This document shows, piece after piece, positions 60,160 to 64,000 of a DNA stretch of 64,000 nt. This stretch comes from Deltaproteobacteria bacterium HGW-Deltaproteobacteria-18 (lineage in GTDB: Bacteria > Desulfobacterota > Desulfovibrionia > Desulfovibrionales > Desulfomicrobiaceae). Made by a program: the position numbers and the translations under genes. The notes under the pieces are model-generated. The model made no database searches. It was not told the DNA's origin and saw only the letters and a list, made by a program, of their open reading frames with translations. The first letter of the stretch is position 1. Every line of letters begins with the position of its first letter. The stretch lies in contig PHBE01000004.1 of assembly GCA_002841885.1 (NCBI GenBank), forward strand, positions 186,001 to 250,000, read 5' to 3'.

Positions 60160-60688
60160 ATGACGCAAGCCACCAACGACGACCTGGAAAAAAGGCTCGC
60201 CCAAGCCATGGCCGCCTTGGAGACGAGCGAAGCGTGATACCGCGACCGCTTTGATCACTCCCCGGTCGGAGTGTACCGCAGATCCCTGTCGGGCAGGTCA
60301 GCCCCTGCTACTCGGAGGCAATCTGGCCGAGGATGACGAGGGCAATCTGCTGACCAGCCTCAAGATGCTGCAAAAACTCGGGCACACGGTGACTGCGGTC
60401 ATGAATGGTCAGGAAGCCCTGGACGCACCGGCCCGGCAGGATTTCGACCTGATCTTCATGGACATCCAGATGCCTGTCCTGGACGGCGTCGAGGCGACCA
60501 GAATCATCCGCAAGTCAAGGGAACTCGGCGACAAGGCCGCAATCCCCATCATCGCCATGACTGCCTATGCCATGGCCGGAGACAGGGAGACCTTTCTTCA
60601 GGCCGGCATGACCGACTATCTGGCCAAGCCGGTAAGCAGGGACGCCCTGATTCAGGCTATCGAAAAGACAATGTCCGCCGGTTCCTGA
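60160..60688 (+). pseudogene. Remnant of a hybrid sensor kinase (PAS start and receiver end)
   Basis: The ATG at 60160 opens a 25-codon coiled-coil-like frame that hits a TGA at 60235. The same frame then continues with YRDRFDHSPVGVYRRS, a clear PAS-domain start. Near 60295 the reading moves by one base into a receiver domain: LAEDDEGN, phospho-acceptor in LIFMDIQMPVLDG, MTAYAM and YLAKPV, ending at 60688. The rest of the PAS domain and the whole histidine kinase core are missing. So a hybrid kinase has lost its centre and gained a stop and a frameshift. A 145-residue receiver-only protein could still be made from an ATG at 60251. Confidence 0.8.
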
Positions 60689-60725: not shown

Positions 60726-61199
60726 TCAGGGAGTCTGTCCCTGCCAGGCCTGATACCCGGCCGGATAGCGAAAAACATTTGTGTATCCCAGACGCACGGC
60801 CCAGGCAGCGGCAATCTCGCTGAGTAGTCAGCGGAATCCCCGGCAATAGACCACGATGATCCTGTCCTTGTCCGCGCCCAGAACATCCACAAAGGCCTGC
60901 CGCCGGGCAGAAGGCAGGTCGCCCCAATCTGCAAGGTCAACGGGCAGACTGACCGCGCCGGACATATGCCCGGCCGCGTACTCGTAGGCAAAGCGCACGT
61001 CGACCAGCAGCACACCTGGTTCGACGAGCAGCATCTCGCGCAACCCGGCGGTGGTGAGCAGCCTGTAGCCGTCGCGTTCGGCCGCACGCGCGGCCTGCTC
61101 ATAAAGCGGGGAGCCGGCTTCCTGATCGGCCAGCCCTGTCGAGACGCAGCACAGCGCCGTCAGCACGGACAGGCACAGAGTTCGTCGCAGCAGACGCAT
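60726..61199 (-). CDS. Periplasmic rhodanese with in-frame UGA (possible selenoprotein)
   Basis: From the ATG at 61199 (AGGA upstream) the frame encodes a signal peptide ending near GLA-DQE and a rhodanese domain with LLVDVRFAYEYAAGHMSGAV. It reaches IIVVYCRGFR, then TGA (60828-60830, codon 124). The same frame goes on with LLSEIAAAWAVRLGYTNVF and ends at 60726, giving a full domain of 157 codons. In the neighbouring triple-rhodanese protein the same place reads YCGGLACPLS and YCGGVECPLS, so the UGA aligns with a cysteine. It is either read as selenocysteine or is a recent nonsense mutation. Confidence 0.7.
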
Positions 61200-61304: not shown

Positions 61305-62603
61305 CTACTTCTTGATCTCGAAAGACCCGTCTGGGGCGTAACTGACGTTGGCGTCAACGTAGTAGACGTCCTTCAGGTCGGGGCGCATGGCCTGGAACAT
61401 GTAGAACGCCTCTCCGCTGCGCGCGCCGGTGGTACAGATGAAGACGATGGGCTTTTCCGCCGTGAACCCGTCTATCTTCTTCTCGAGCATGTCCACGGTC
61501 ATGTTTTCGGCGCCGGGGATGTGCGCGATGGCGAACTCCGCAGGGGCGCGCACGTCGATGAGCCGGATGCTGTCCACGTTGTTTCTGGCCAGGTCGGTGA
61601 ATACACCGTTGTCAATGGTCCCTTCGCCCGCACCGGCCTTCAATGCTCCGGCCGGAGCAGCGGCCTTGGCCGGGGCCGGGGCGGACGCGGCCTCCTGGGA
61701 AGCCCCCTCAGCGGTCCAGACCTTGAGGCCCTTGGCGACCCATTCAGGATCGCCCGCCGGATACACGGCCACGTTGGTGTAGCCCAGGGCCTCCGCCTTC
61801 CAGGCCGACTGATGGCTCAAAGGGCATTCCACTCCGCCGCAATAGAAGATCAGCTTTGCGCTCTTGTCGGCAGGCAGGACCTCGGCGGCCATCTTGTCGA
61901 ACTGGCTGTCTGGCAGGCTCACGGCCGTGGGGATGTGCCCCTTGTCATAGCGAGGCTGCTTGGGCCGGGCGTCGATGATCATCACATCCTCTACGGGCGT
62001 AGCCGAAAGCATGGCGTTGGCCACGTATGGCTTGAGCTGGTCGAGGGTCAACAACCGATGAAACGGCTTGGTCACCTTGGCCGGATTGAGCACCGGAAGG
62101 GGCGTACGCACATCGCGCGCCGTCCACACCGTGTACCCCAGGGATGCCCACTCCGGATCGCCGGCGGCATAGACCTTGACGTTGGTGTAGCCCAGGGCCT
62201 CGGCCTTCCAGGCCGACTGGTGGCTCAAGGGGCAGGCCAGCCCGCCGCAGTAGAAGACCAGCAGGGCGTCCTTGTCCGCGGGCAGGACCTCGGCGGCCAT
62301 CTTGTCGAACTGGCTGCCTGGCAGGCTCACGGCCGTCGGGATGTGGCCCTTGTCATAGCGGGGCTGTTTGGGTCTGGCGTCGATGATCATGGCCCCCGTC
62401 GACGGGTTCTGGTTCATCATGGCCTCAAAGACCAGGGGTTTGACGAACTCGATATCCACCAGGGTGTGGTAGGGCGTGGGCACCTTGGCCGGATCGAACT
62501 GGACAGCCGCGCCCTTGTGCCCGCGCGCGCCGGAACAGCCGGCGAGCAGCCCCAGAAGGAGCGCCACCACAAGAACATGAAGAAGGGATGATTGTCTGCG
62601 CAT
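61305..62603 (-). CDS. Lipoprotein with three rhodanese domains
   Basis: The 432-residue protein starts at the ATG at 62603 with GAGGAG upstream. The lipobox is LLAGC near 19-23. Two nearly identical rhodanese domains follow (about 35-165 and 170-290), each with IIDARPKQPRYDKGHIPTAV and a CGGxxCPLSHQSAWKAEALG active loop. A proline/alanine linker leads to a third, different domain (about 315-430) with RLIDVRAPAEFAIAHIPGAE and catalytic cysteine in FICTTGARSGEA. The first two are a recent tandem copy, visible also in DNA. It is probably an envelope sulfurtransferase working with the neighbouring oxidoreductase genes. Confidence 0.9.
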   Translation of the reverse strand: MRRQSSLLHVLVVALLLGLLAGCSGARGHKGAAVQFDPAKVPTPYHTLVDIEFVKPLVFEAMMNQNPSTGAMIIDARPKQPRYDKGHIPTAVSLPGSQFDKMAAEVLPADKDALLVFYCGGLACPLSHQSAWKAEALGYTNVKVYAAGDPEWASLGYTVWTARDVRTPLPVLNPAKVTKPFHRLLTLDQLKPYVANAMLSATPVEDVMIIDARPKQPRYDKGHIPTAVSLPDSQFDKMAAEVLPADKSAKLIFYCGGVECPLSHQSAWKAEALGYTNVAVYPAGDPEWVAKGLKVWTAEGASQEAASAPAPAKAAAPAGALKAGAGEGTIDNGVFTDLARNNVDSIRLIDVRAPAEFAIAHIPGAENMTVDMLEKKIDGFTAEKPIVFICTTGARSGEAFYMFQAMRPDLKDVYYVDANVSYAPDGSFEIKK

Positions 62604-62684
62604 TGCCTTGCTCCTCATCTGATTGGTTGCATTAAACGTTGAATTTTCGGTCGAACAGCCGCCGCGCCTCGTGATAACCCGCGA

Positions 62685-63404
62685 CTAGCCGTCTTTTTCC
62701 TTTTCTGCGGCCACTTGCGCGTACCACAGCGAGTGATGATGCCGCGCGTAGTGTTCGGACACATTGCCGGTGAACATGGACATGAATGCCGGGCGCTCCT
62801 CCCGCGAGATGGCAGCCATGAAAATGTGCACCAGCAGACCCGCGAAAACCAGGCCCACCGTCAGGTAGTGGATCACGCGGGACCAGGCCGCCGGGGCGGG
62901 GTTGTCCATGGATATGGTTGAAAAGAACATGACCAGGCCCGTAGCCACGATTACCGCCCCGCCCACCACCGAGGCCTGAGCGAAGAGCTTCTGCCCGAAG
63001 TTGTAAAAGCCTTGGGGCGGCAGGTCCGGGGTCAGCCCGAAGCGCTCAAGCCCCTTGCGGCCCAGGGCCATCTTCAGGGTCATCTTGAGCAGCCAGATGT
63101 CGCTGGCCGGAGACACGGCGAAGACCTCCTTGAGGAAGGCCCAGGTTTCGCGAGGCCTGAGAAGGATGTAGGCCAGAAACGCCCCGGCCCAGATCAGGCC
63201 GAGGTACTGATGCATCAGGAGCAGGTTTTCCCCGCCTCCGAACAGGGCGCGCATCAGGTCCGGAAGCCACGCGCCCACGGGGTTCAGCTCTTCGTTCTTG
63301 ATCAGCCCAAGGCCCGTCAGCAAAAGGGCGAACCAGCTAAAAGCGTTGAACCAGTGCATGAAGATGGAGAGCCGGGTATGTCTGTGGATCATTTTTTCAC
63401 TCAT
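62685..63404 (-). CDS. Cytochrome b subunit, formate-dehydrogenase gamma type
   Basis: The 239-residue protein starts at the ATG at 63404, after GAGG. It has four membrane segments and histidines suited to two b haems: RLSIFMHWFNAFSWFALLLTG near 7-27, LLLMHQYLGLIWAG near 56-69, and VIHYLTVGLVFAGLLVHIFMA near 184-204. This is the pattern of FdnI-like quinone-reactive subunits. It follows the iron-sulfur subunit gene by 8 bp. The catalytic subunit must lie beyond the window, so the substrate (formate, thiosulfate, polysulfide or other) is open. Confidence 0.88.
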   Translation of the reverse strand: MSEKMIHRHTRLSIFMHWFNAFSWFALLLTGLGLIKNEELNPVGAWLPDLMRALFGGGENLLLMHQYLGLIWAGAFLAYILLRPRETWAFLKEVFAVSPASDIWLLKMTLKMALGRKGLERFGLTPDLPPQGFYNFGQKLFAQASVVGGAVIVATGLVMFFSTISMDNPAPAAWSRVIHYLTVGLVFAGLLVHIFMAAISREERPAFMSMFTGNVSEHYARHHHSLWYAQVAAEKEKDG

Positions 63405-63412
63405 GGGGCACC

Positions 63413-64000
63413 TCAATCCTTCCCTGGGGCTGACGATTCATGTTCGTTCTCCTCCCTGTCTGGAGAAAAGATCTGCTTGGCCCACATGACCGCGACACCC
63501 AGGGCGCTGAGGCCCACCGCCACCTTGACCACCGGGTTGACCAGGGTGGCCATGGTCGTGAACGCACCGGGGAACTCCACCTCGCCCGCCCAGTCCGTGG
63601 GAGCGGTGGCTGCCACGTAGTACATGTTGGGTTTGGTATCGATGCCCCCCCTGGCCAGCACCCGCACGGAAGGCTTCTCGCGCAGCAGGCGGGAAGCGTC
63701 GCTGTCCGGGTCGTTCAAGTCCCCGAAGACCCGGGCCTTGGTCGGGCAGGTATCCACGCAGGCGGGAAGCAGGCCGCGCTCAAGCCTGCCGGAACTGAAG
63801 CAGAAGTCGCACTTGTCCGGCACCCGCGTGTCCGGATGACGAAAACGGGCGCCATAGGGGCAGGCCTTGATGCAGTTGCCGCAGCCGATGCACAGGGCCT
63901 CGTTGACCTGCACGATCCCGTTCCGGGGGTCCTTGTAGGTCGCGCCGCTGGGGCAGGCCTGCACGCAGGTCGGGTTGTCGCACTGCATGCACCCCCCCGG
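63413..64000 (-). CDS. 4Fe-4S electron-transfer subunit (5' end outside window)
   Basis: The open frame enters from the window edge in phase, so the N-terminus is missing; 195 codons are seen. It has cysteine groups CMQCDNPTCVQACP, CIGCGNCIKACPYGA and CDFC with CVDTCP, typical of the four-cluster beta subunit of molybdoenzymes (FdnH, PhsB, NrfC types). A membrane anchor near the C-terminus (VVKVAVGLSALGVAVMWA) fits FdnH-like subunits. It passes electrons between the catalytic subunit and the cytochrome b encoded next. Confidence 0.9.
   Translation of the reverse strand, partial: PGGCMQCDNPTCVQACPSGATYKDPRNGIVQVNEALCIGCGNCIKACPYGARFRHPDTRVPDKCDFCFSSGRLERGLLPACVDTCPTKARVFGDLNDPDSDASRLLREKPSVRVLARGGIDTKPNMYYVAATAPTDWAGEVEFPGAFTTMATLVNPVVKVAVGLSALGVAVMWAKQIFSPDREENEHESSAPGKD

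Follow-up and report, generated by a model that had tools for sequence, protein, structure and literature searches.

A rhodanese gene with a probable selenocysteine codon lies behind a Psr/Phs-like molybdoenzyme gene cluster in a member of the Desulfovibrionales

The 64,000-nucleotide stretch of Deltaproteobacteria bacterium HGW-Deltaproteobacteria-18 analysed here (the window) carries a rhodanese gene interrupted by an in-frame UGA. A preliminary description, made from the letters and their open reading frames, had offered two explanations for this codon, a new selenocysteine-containing sulfurtransferase or a fresh nonsense mutation, and had pointed to a small hairpin just after the UGA as a possible selenocysteine insertion (SECIS) element. 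The locus raises the question of which explanation holds and, if the codon is decoded as selenocysteine (Sec), of what such a rhodanese would do in its genomic setting. The features discussed below are collected in Table 1.

Table 1. Features of the rhodanese locus and its cluster; positions are those of the window unless a locus is named.
Feature	Position	Strand	Remarks
Seleno-rhodanese gene (putative)	60726..61199	minus	157 residues + stop; single rhodanese domain
In-frame UGA, very probably selenocysteine, residue 124	60828..60830	minus	67 aligned family rows: 58 TGA, 9 Cys codon
Likelier SECIS hairpin, CCUGGGC-CGUGC-GUCUGGG	60787..60805	minus	nt 23-41 past UGA; loop 60798-60794
Hairpin of the preliminary description, CAGCG-AGATTGC-CGCTG	60806..60822	minus	present; too near UGA, not conserved
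Multi-rhodanese lipoprotein	61305..62618	minus	two CxxxxC domains (YCGGLAC, YCGGVEC), one CTTGARS domain
Cytochrome b subunit of cluster	62685..63416	minus	PF01292; cytochrome b561-type
4Fe-4S subunit	63413..64000	minus	continues past window end
Psr/Phs-like molybdoenzyme, beyond window	L142:6169-8418		follows 4Fe-4S subunit
Cytochrome c, beyond window	L142:8457-8795		follows molybdoenzyme
Lipoprotein genes with UGA	L099, L101, L104, L113, L118, L119, L120

Translation of the minus strand returned the frame exactly where it had been described (60726-61199), together with the 33 codons of rhodanese sequence reported to follow the UGA before a normal stop. Starting from an ATG at 61199, it proceeds as ...IIVVYCRGFR-TGA-LLSEIAAAWAVRLGYTNVFRYPAGYQAWQGQTP-TGA, with the internal UGA at 60830-60828 and the terminal TGA at 60728-60726. 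The N-terminus reads as a signal-peptide-like stretch, and the Pfam match to PF00581 (59.6 bits, against a gathering cut-off of 22.2) covers residues 59-154 and spans the UGA. The active-site loop takes the form C119-R-G-F-R-U124-L-L-S, with the catalytic-type cysteine at residue 119; the fifth residue after the catalytic cysteine of a rhodanese faces the persulfide. As had been pointed out, the matching spot is a cysteine in both CxxxxC domains of the neighbouring lipoprotein (YCGGLACPLS and YCGGVECPLS), and no UGA is present at these positions in the copy of the window. An AlphaFold2 model of the protein obtained a mean pLDDT of 92.9, and its fold matches are rhodaneses, with 1qxn (polysulfide-sulfur transferase) at rank 34. 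On the plus strand, convergent with the gene, positions 60160-60688 hold what appears by eye to be a hybrid sensor kinase remnant, with a PAS-like start containing a stop and then a receiver-like ORF.

Rhodanese selenoproteins have been catalogued previously, and the qualifier "new" in the preliminary description needs to be tempered on that account, while its selenocysteine reading is supported by the comparisons presented below. In its accessible portion, PMC13188914 lists five forms, among them form 1 (PF00581, motif UxxS, one Sec, WP_010941598.1), form 3 (rhodanese_LYCAU, CxU) and form 5 (TsoB, UxxxxU), all three in its Table 1. Earlier surveys likewise mention selenoproteins of the rhodanese-like kind, including a deltaproteobacterial one (PMC8318568), and such proteins are also named in PMC1088965, PMC2398784 and PMC9312934.

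None of the NCBIfam models scores the window protein above its cut-off. The best one, TsoB (NF045694), shares the second-position Sec in its rhodanese domain, but it contains two Sec residues and a DsbD/thioredoxin part, whereas the window protein presents C119 with one Sec and no DsbD; membership was rejected, given a score of 110.8 bits over the rhodanese part only against a cut-off of 805 bits, and a CxxxxU rather than UxxxxU motif. The rhodanese_LYCAU family (NF041203), a rhodanese-related (seleno)protein by its own description, was similarly discarded, with 23.5 bits against a cut-off of 115 and a Sec two residues after the Cys (CxU) instead of five. The window protein does resemble form 1 in motif and domain as tabulated in the accessible part of PMC13188914 (PF00581, one Sec, and U-L-L-S fitting UxxS). 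CxxxxU rhodaneses, most of them U-x-x-S, were also observed in the order of the ExtH-bearing genome G409 (L200-L210), both in a short kind (YCNGFSUGQS-like) and in a long multi-rhodanese form with FCAGVTUALS. These proteins may correspond to form 1, and the two compared by BLASTP show 33-34% identity to the window protein. TsoB-type rhodanese-DsbD genes with two UGAs (FYUAGLTU) were encountered in L028 (G013) and L041 (G011), and downstream of them in L028 comes the stretch NEPNGKPU, in agreement with the TsoC motif of PMC13188914.

The gene is present in 6 of the 22 genomes of its family, its own included, and each copy contains a single in-frame TGA. The codon is retained in all five relatives, which show 61-88% identity, the match in G010 covering only part of the length. 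At the order level, 141 of 348 genomes presented a match at E 1e-12 or better, a count that takes in TsoB as well as Cys paralogues of the type IYCGFVKC. From this order, 60 loci were fetched among the matches listed, with a lower limit of about 123 bits and G210 (92 bits) as an addition; the set leaves out genus members already in hand and further TsoB copies, and lower-scoring Sec members may be missing from it, since G210 also encodes the Sec form. Adding seven family-level loci and five from a phylum search yielded 72 rows, five of them TsoB. L017 (contig shared with L024) and L027 (the same gene as L134) were dropped. In the 67 non-TsoB rows, the UGA position is occupied by TGA in 58 and by a Cys codon in nine (eight TGC, one TGT), with no instance of TAA or TAG. 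The selenocysteine reading passes the comparison with homologues proposed in the preliminary description, UGA being retained in most of these rows and a cysteine codon present in some.

The Sec rows are spread over four families within the order and a single family beyond it, and most of them share the motif YCRxFRU. Beyond the order, members turned up in f21 only, with two Sec and three Cys genes; 43 of the 395 genomes searched in the phylum gave any match at E 1e-20, and these were mostly TsoB or Cys paralogues. A tree comprising 57 Sec, nine Cys and three TsoB rows (69 in all, with the partial L134 and two TsoB rows omitted) forces at least four Sec/Cys changes and places the three TsoB rows in a separate group with support 100/100. 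Single Sec/Cys events in this tree are uncertain, because several end branches are long. Within the genus, pN was lower than pS over the 90 nt after the UGA in all ten gene pairs, with pN/pS ranging from 0.08 to 0.81, the latter value in one pair.

The preliminary description had named the sel genes as a check on the selenocysteine reading, and the 3.99-Mb genome carrying the window encodes the full set, each over its curated cut-off: selA (624 bits), selB (366 bits), selC (tRNA-Sec, 86 bits) and selD (327 bits). The selD gene has one in-frame TGA (L052), and SelD is on this basis probably a selenoprotein itself. Across genomes, selB was detected in 38 of 39. The remaining one, G015, has a Sec-form gene, but its fragmented assembly yielded no selB. 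Since all nine Cys-form genomes possess selB, its presence does not track the use of Sec, and it was set aside as uninformative for predicting the Sec or Cys form. About 4.6 kb past the window end, on the minus strand (L142:10650-12044), lies a gene for an Fe-S oxidoreductase with an in-frame UGA (LNTE-U-GHVTY), which fits the known UGH selenoprotein family and is split in two by ORF calling.

Candidate SECIS elements were evaluated with rules scripted from the published bacterial model, which, as excerpted, requires a loop of 3-9 nt, a stem of 4-16 bp, a G as the first or second loop base, a UGA-to-loop distance of 16-37 nt and an energy of -7.5 kcal/mol or lower (PMC13188914). The hairpin initially proposed (60822-60806) does exist, but its role as a SECIS could not be upheld: its loop starts 10 nt past the UGA, against 16-37 nt in the model, and its pair 7-21 forms in five of 12 close relatives (four A-T, one G-C). 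A second hairpin, at 60805-60787, fits the model in loop, stem, G and spacing, with seven pairs, a CGUGC loop and 29 nt from the UGA. All seven pairs form in each of the 12 rows of groups g1 and g6; one pair varies, being G-C in nine rows and G-U in three, so there is no two-sided covariation.

Folding energy and synonymous variation spoke differently on this second hairpin, the former being equivocal and the latter supporting a SECIS in g1 and g6. The hairpin alone reaches -6.6 kcal/mol, missing the published threshold, and the 45-nt fold reaches -13.9; compared with 100 synonymous shuffles, its energy is not special (p 0.76). Among all rows, the energy test was significant (p <=0.05) for 8 of 58 Sec and 2 of 9 Cys rows and therefore fails to separate the two forms, so folding energy was discarded as SECIS evidence. 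L104 and L106, relatives from f4, have a hairpin of only -3.7 kcal/mol under the model used. In the 12 genes of g1 and g6, the synonymous difference falls to 0.099 in codons +8..+14, versus 0.40-0.47 upstream, making this the lowest seven-codon window of the gene; values as low were obtained in 71 of 200,000 random codon sets and in 128 of 5,000 shuffled gene orders. The 23 genes of g52 display values of 0.31 at +1..+7, 0.395 at +8..+14 and 0.46-0.49 upstream, with no constraint peak at +8..+14 and the lowest windows beginning at -3 to 0 and at +7, and RNAalifold returned a weak, different structure for this group (-8.1), which was set aside. The constraint in g1 and g6 is the stronger evidence, and the hairpin at 60805-60787 is probably a bacterial SECIS.

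Judged by these sequence comparisons, the UGA at 60830-60828 is very probably read as selenocysteine, residue 124. The frame is formally interrupted, as a true stop followed by decaying sequence would have it, be it a fresh nonsense mutation or a pseudogene, but the recurrence of TGA in rows from five families, with cysteine in every other row, no other stop codon and conserved sequence past the UGA, excludes a fresh mutation and leaves any form of decay with a next to negligible probability. Suppression by another amino acid was rejected on the same alignment, in which only Cys or UGA occurs. Sec decoding competes with termination, and a 123-residue form keeping C119 could be made alongside the Sec form according to selenium supply and matter in its own right; truncation would, nonetheless, strip the modelled fold of its loop end, the next helix and the last strand, so that the short form should not fold, and we regard such regulated termination as very unlikely. 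With Sec124 as the preferred reading, the question turns to the function of the protein.

The gene is part of a cluster encoding, in order, a cytochrome c, a Psr/Phs-like molybdoenzyme, an Fe-S protein, a cytochrome b, the multi-rhodanese lipoprotein and the seleno-rhodanese. In tblastn searches of the 16 neighbourhoods fetched, all six genes were found together in the 15 that were complete, the sixteenth (L155) ending within the lipoprotein gene. Fourteen of the 15 share one gene order, the exception being L149, in which the two rhodanese genes are swapped; L157, which encodes the Cys form, has the same six-gene cluster. These genes appear to form an operon-like cluster and would be co-transcribed. 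The molybdoenzyme scores over the Pfam cut-offs for PF00384, PF01568 and PF04879, which cover the molybdopterin oxidoreductase, dinucleotide-binding and Fe4S4 domains. Its best NCBIfam model is PhsA, with 511.8 bits under a cut-off of 694, and its best PDB chain is 2vpw (362 bits), named thiosulfate reductase, which we take to be the Thermus Psr. Phs, Psr and Sre are, according to the excerpted text of PMC8359478, not distinguishable by sequence.

The partner lipoprotein provided a parallel to the rhodanese. In two neighbourhoods its ORF appeared broken, interrupted by a TGA where a CxxxxC loop would have its second Cys. The lipoprotein motif was present in 54 of the 60 fetched loci (absent from three TsoB loci and from L106, L121 and L134), and seven of these 54 carry a stop codon, always TGA, at that second Cys. 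Six of the corresponding genomes belong to f4 (G041, G039, G038, G035, G032 and G037) and one to g52 (G303). In all seven genomes both rhodanese genes contain a UGA, while the genome of the window has it in the seleno-rhodanese only. About 21 nt past the lipoprotein UGA, a hairpin with arms around UGGAA forms five to seven contiguous pairs in all seven genes; the fourth of them varies in a compensatory manner between C-G, U-A and A-U. Among 40 Cys rows caught by a stricter pattern, the fourth pair forms in six, while the contiguous stem measures 6 bp in three rows and is either 3 bp long or absent in the other 37; the rows being related, these hairpin counts are not independent.

Three architectures were identified in the relatives: a rhodanese alone, as in the window, a rhodanese with a C-terminal part of about 180 residues, and TsoB with DsbD. 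The C-terminal part matches AhpC-TSA with 29.8 bits in L088 (g52) and with 25.5 bits, just below the cut-off of 26, in L082 (g6), and gave no Pfam match in L123 (g48). We infer the decoding in vivo, export, chemistry and substrate of the protein as follows, the reaction cycle being drawn from the CxxxxU pair, these fused reductants and the cluster. The SelA/B/C/D machinery would decode the UGA as Sec, directed by the hairpin about 30 nt downstream, and the product would be an exported rhodanese in which the catalytic-type C119 is kept and Sec lies five residues on. Polysulfide, thiosulfate or the neighbouring multi-rhodanese lipoprotein would donate a sulfane sulfur to C119, which would hold it as a persulfide, and Sec124 would attack this persulfide, releasing sulfide or passing the sulfur on. 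The remaining C119-Sec124 selenenylsulfide may be re-reduced by a thioredoxin-like protein, as suggested by the redoxin-like domain fused to the rhodanese in relatives and by the fusion of the UxxxxU rhodanese of TsoB to DsbD. The seleno-rhodanese could in this way serve the Psr/Phs/Srr-type molybdoenzyme of the cluster as a sulfur (or selenium) carrier, as a reducing partner, or as both.

Rhodaneses associated with such enzymes have precedents. Wolinella succinogenes Sud (1qxn) has the same rhodanese fold, with 17% identity to the window protein in the fold alignment; it presumably feeds polysulfide sulfur to Psr and, to our knowledge, lacks Sec. The srr operon of Bacillus selenitireducens, as described in the accessible part of PMC12481199, encodes a catalytic subunit with a TAT leader, an Fe-S subunit, an anchor and a chaperone in addition to SrrE and SrrF, and its products include rhodanese-domain proteins. 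Like the cluster analysed here, it groups a molybdoenzyme and an Fe-S subunit with rhodanese proteins, but that part of the source mentions no selenocysteine for srr, and the cluster of the window includes cytochromes b and c. In the openly licensed literature, among the matches listed, we found neither a Sec rhodanese beside a Psr/Phs operon nor a cluster with two Sec rhodaneses.

The protein is best read as a periplasmic partner of a respiratory sulfur (or selenite) reductase, for which its CxxxxU loop would carry out persulfide transfer or reduction, and the chances that it works as partner of the molybdoenzyme in this cluster seem to us about even. It could instead be a general periplasmic thiol or selenol oxidoreductase, engaged in peroxide or disulfide repair. 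The likeness of CxxxxU to a redox pair and the AhpC/redoxin-like and DsbD domains of relatives and TsoB are consistent with this role, but the placement of the gene behind Psr/Phs-like genes in every complete neighbourhood and the corresponding UGA that relatives have in the next gene, for the multi-rhodanese lipoprotein, argue against it and make it unlikely. A related proposal retains the partnership and changes the cargo, with the cluster encoding an Srr-like respiratory selenite reductase and the rhodaneses carrying selenium rather than sulfur. The rhodanese-domain proteins of the srr operon point in this direction, as does the assignment of PsrA, PhsA and SrrA to one lineage in the excerpted text of PMC7331816. 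The molybdoenzyme, on the other hand, best matches the PhsA model, below its cut-off, among the NCBIfam models and 2vpw among the PDB chains, and the anchor here is a cytochrome b561-type protein; we consider this proposal rather unlikely. Within the favoured reading of a respiratory partner, a more specific scheme can be tentatively advanced, although we hold it to be somewhat doubtful: a Sec-dependent sulfur relay in which two periplasmic Cys-x4-Sec-capable rhodaneses would shuttle sulfane sulfur (or selenium) to or from a Psr/Srr-type molybdoenzyme by selenenylsulfide exchange, Sec having been adopted separately in both.

These results would define a Sec-containing family across many sulfate reducers whose members would be cut short by annotation that stops at UGA, and would tie selenium supply to the periplasmic respiration of sulfur (or of selenium oxyanions). 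With Sec and Cys replacing each other repeatedly at a single loop position in both partners, the cluster would also constitute a natural experiment on why Sec is chosen, in which Cys and Sec versions of one gene may be compared within one cluster.
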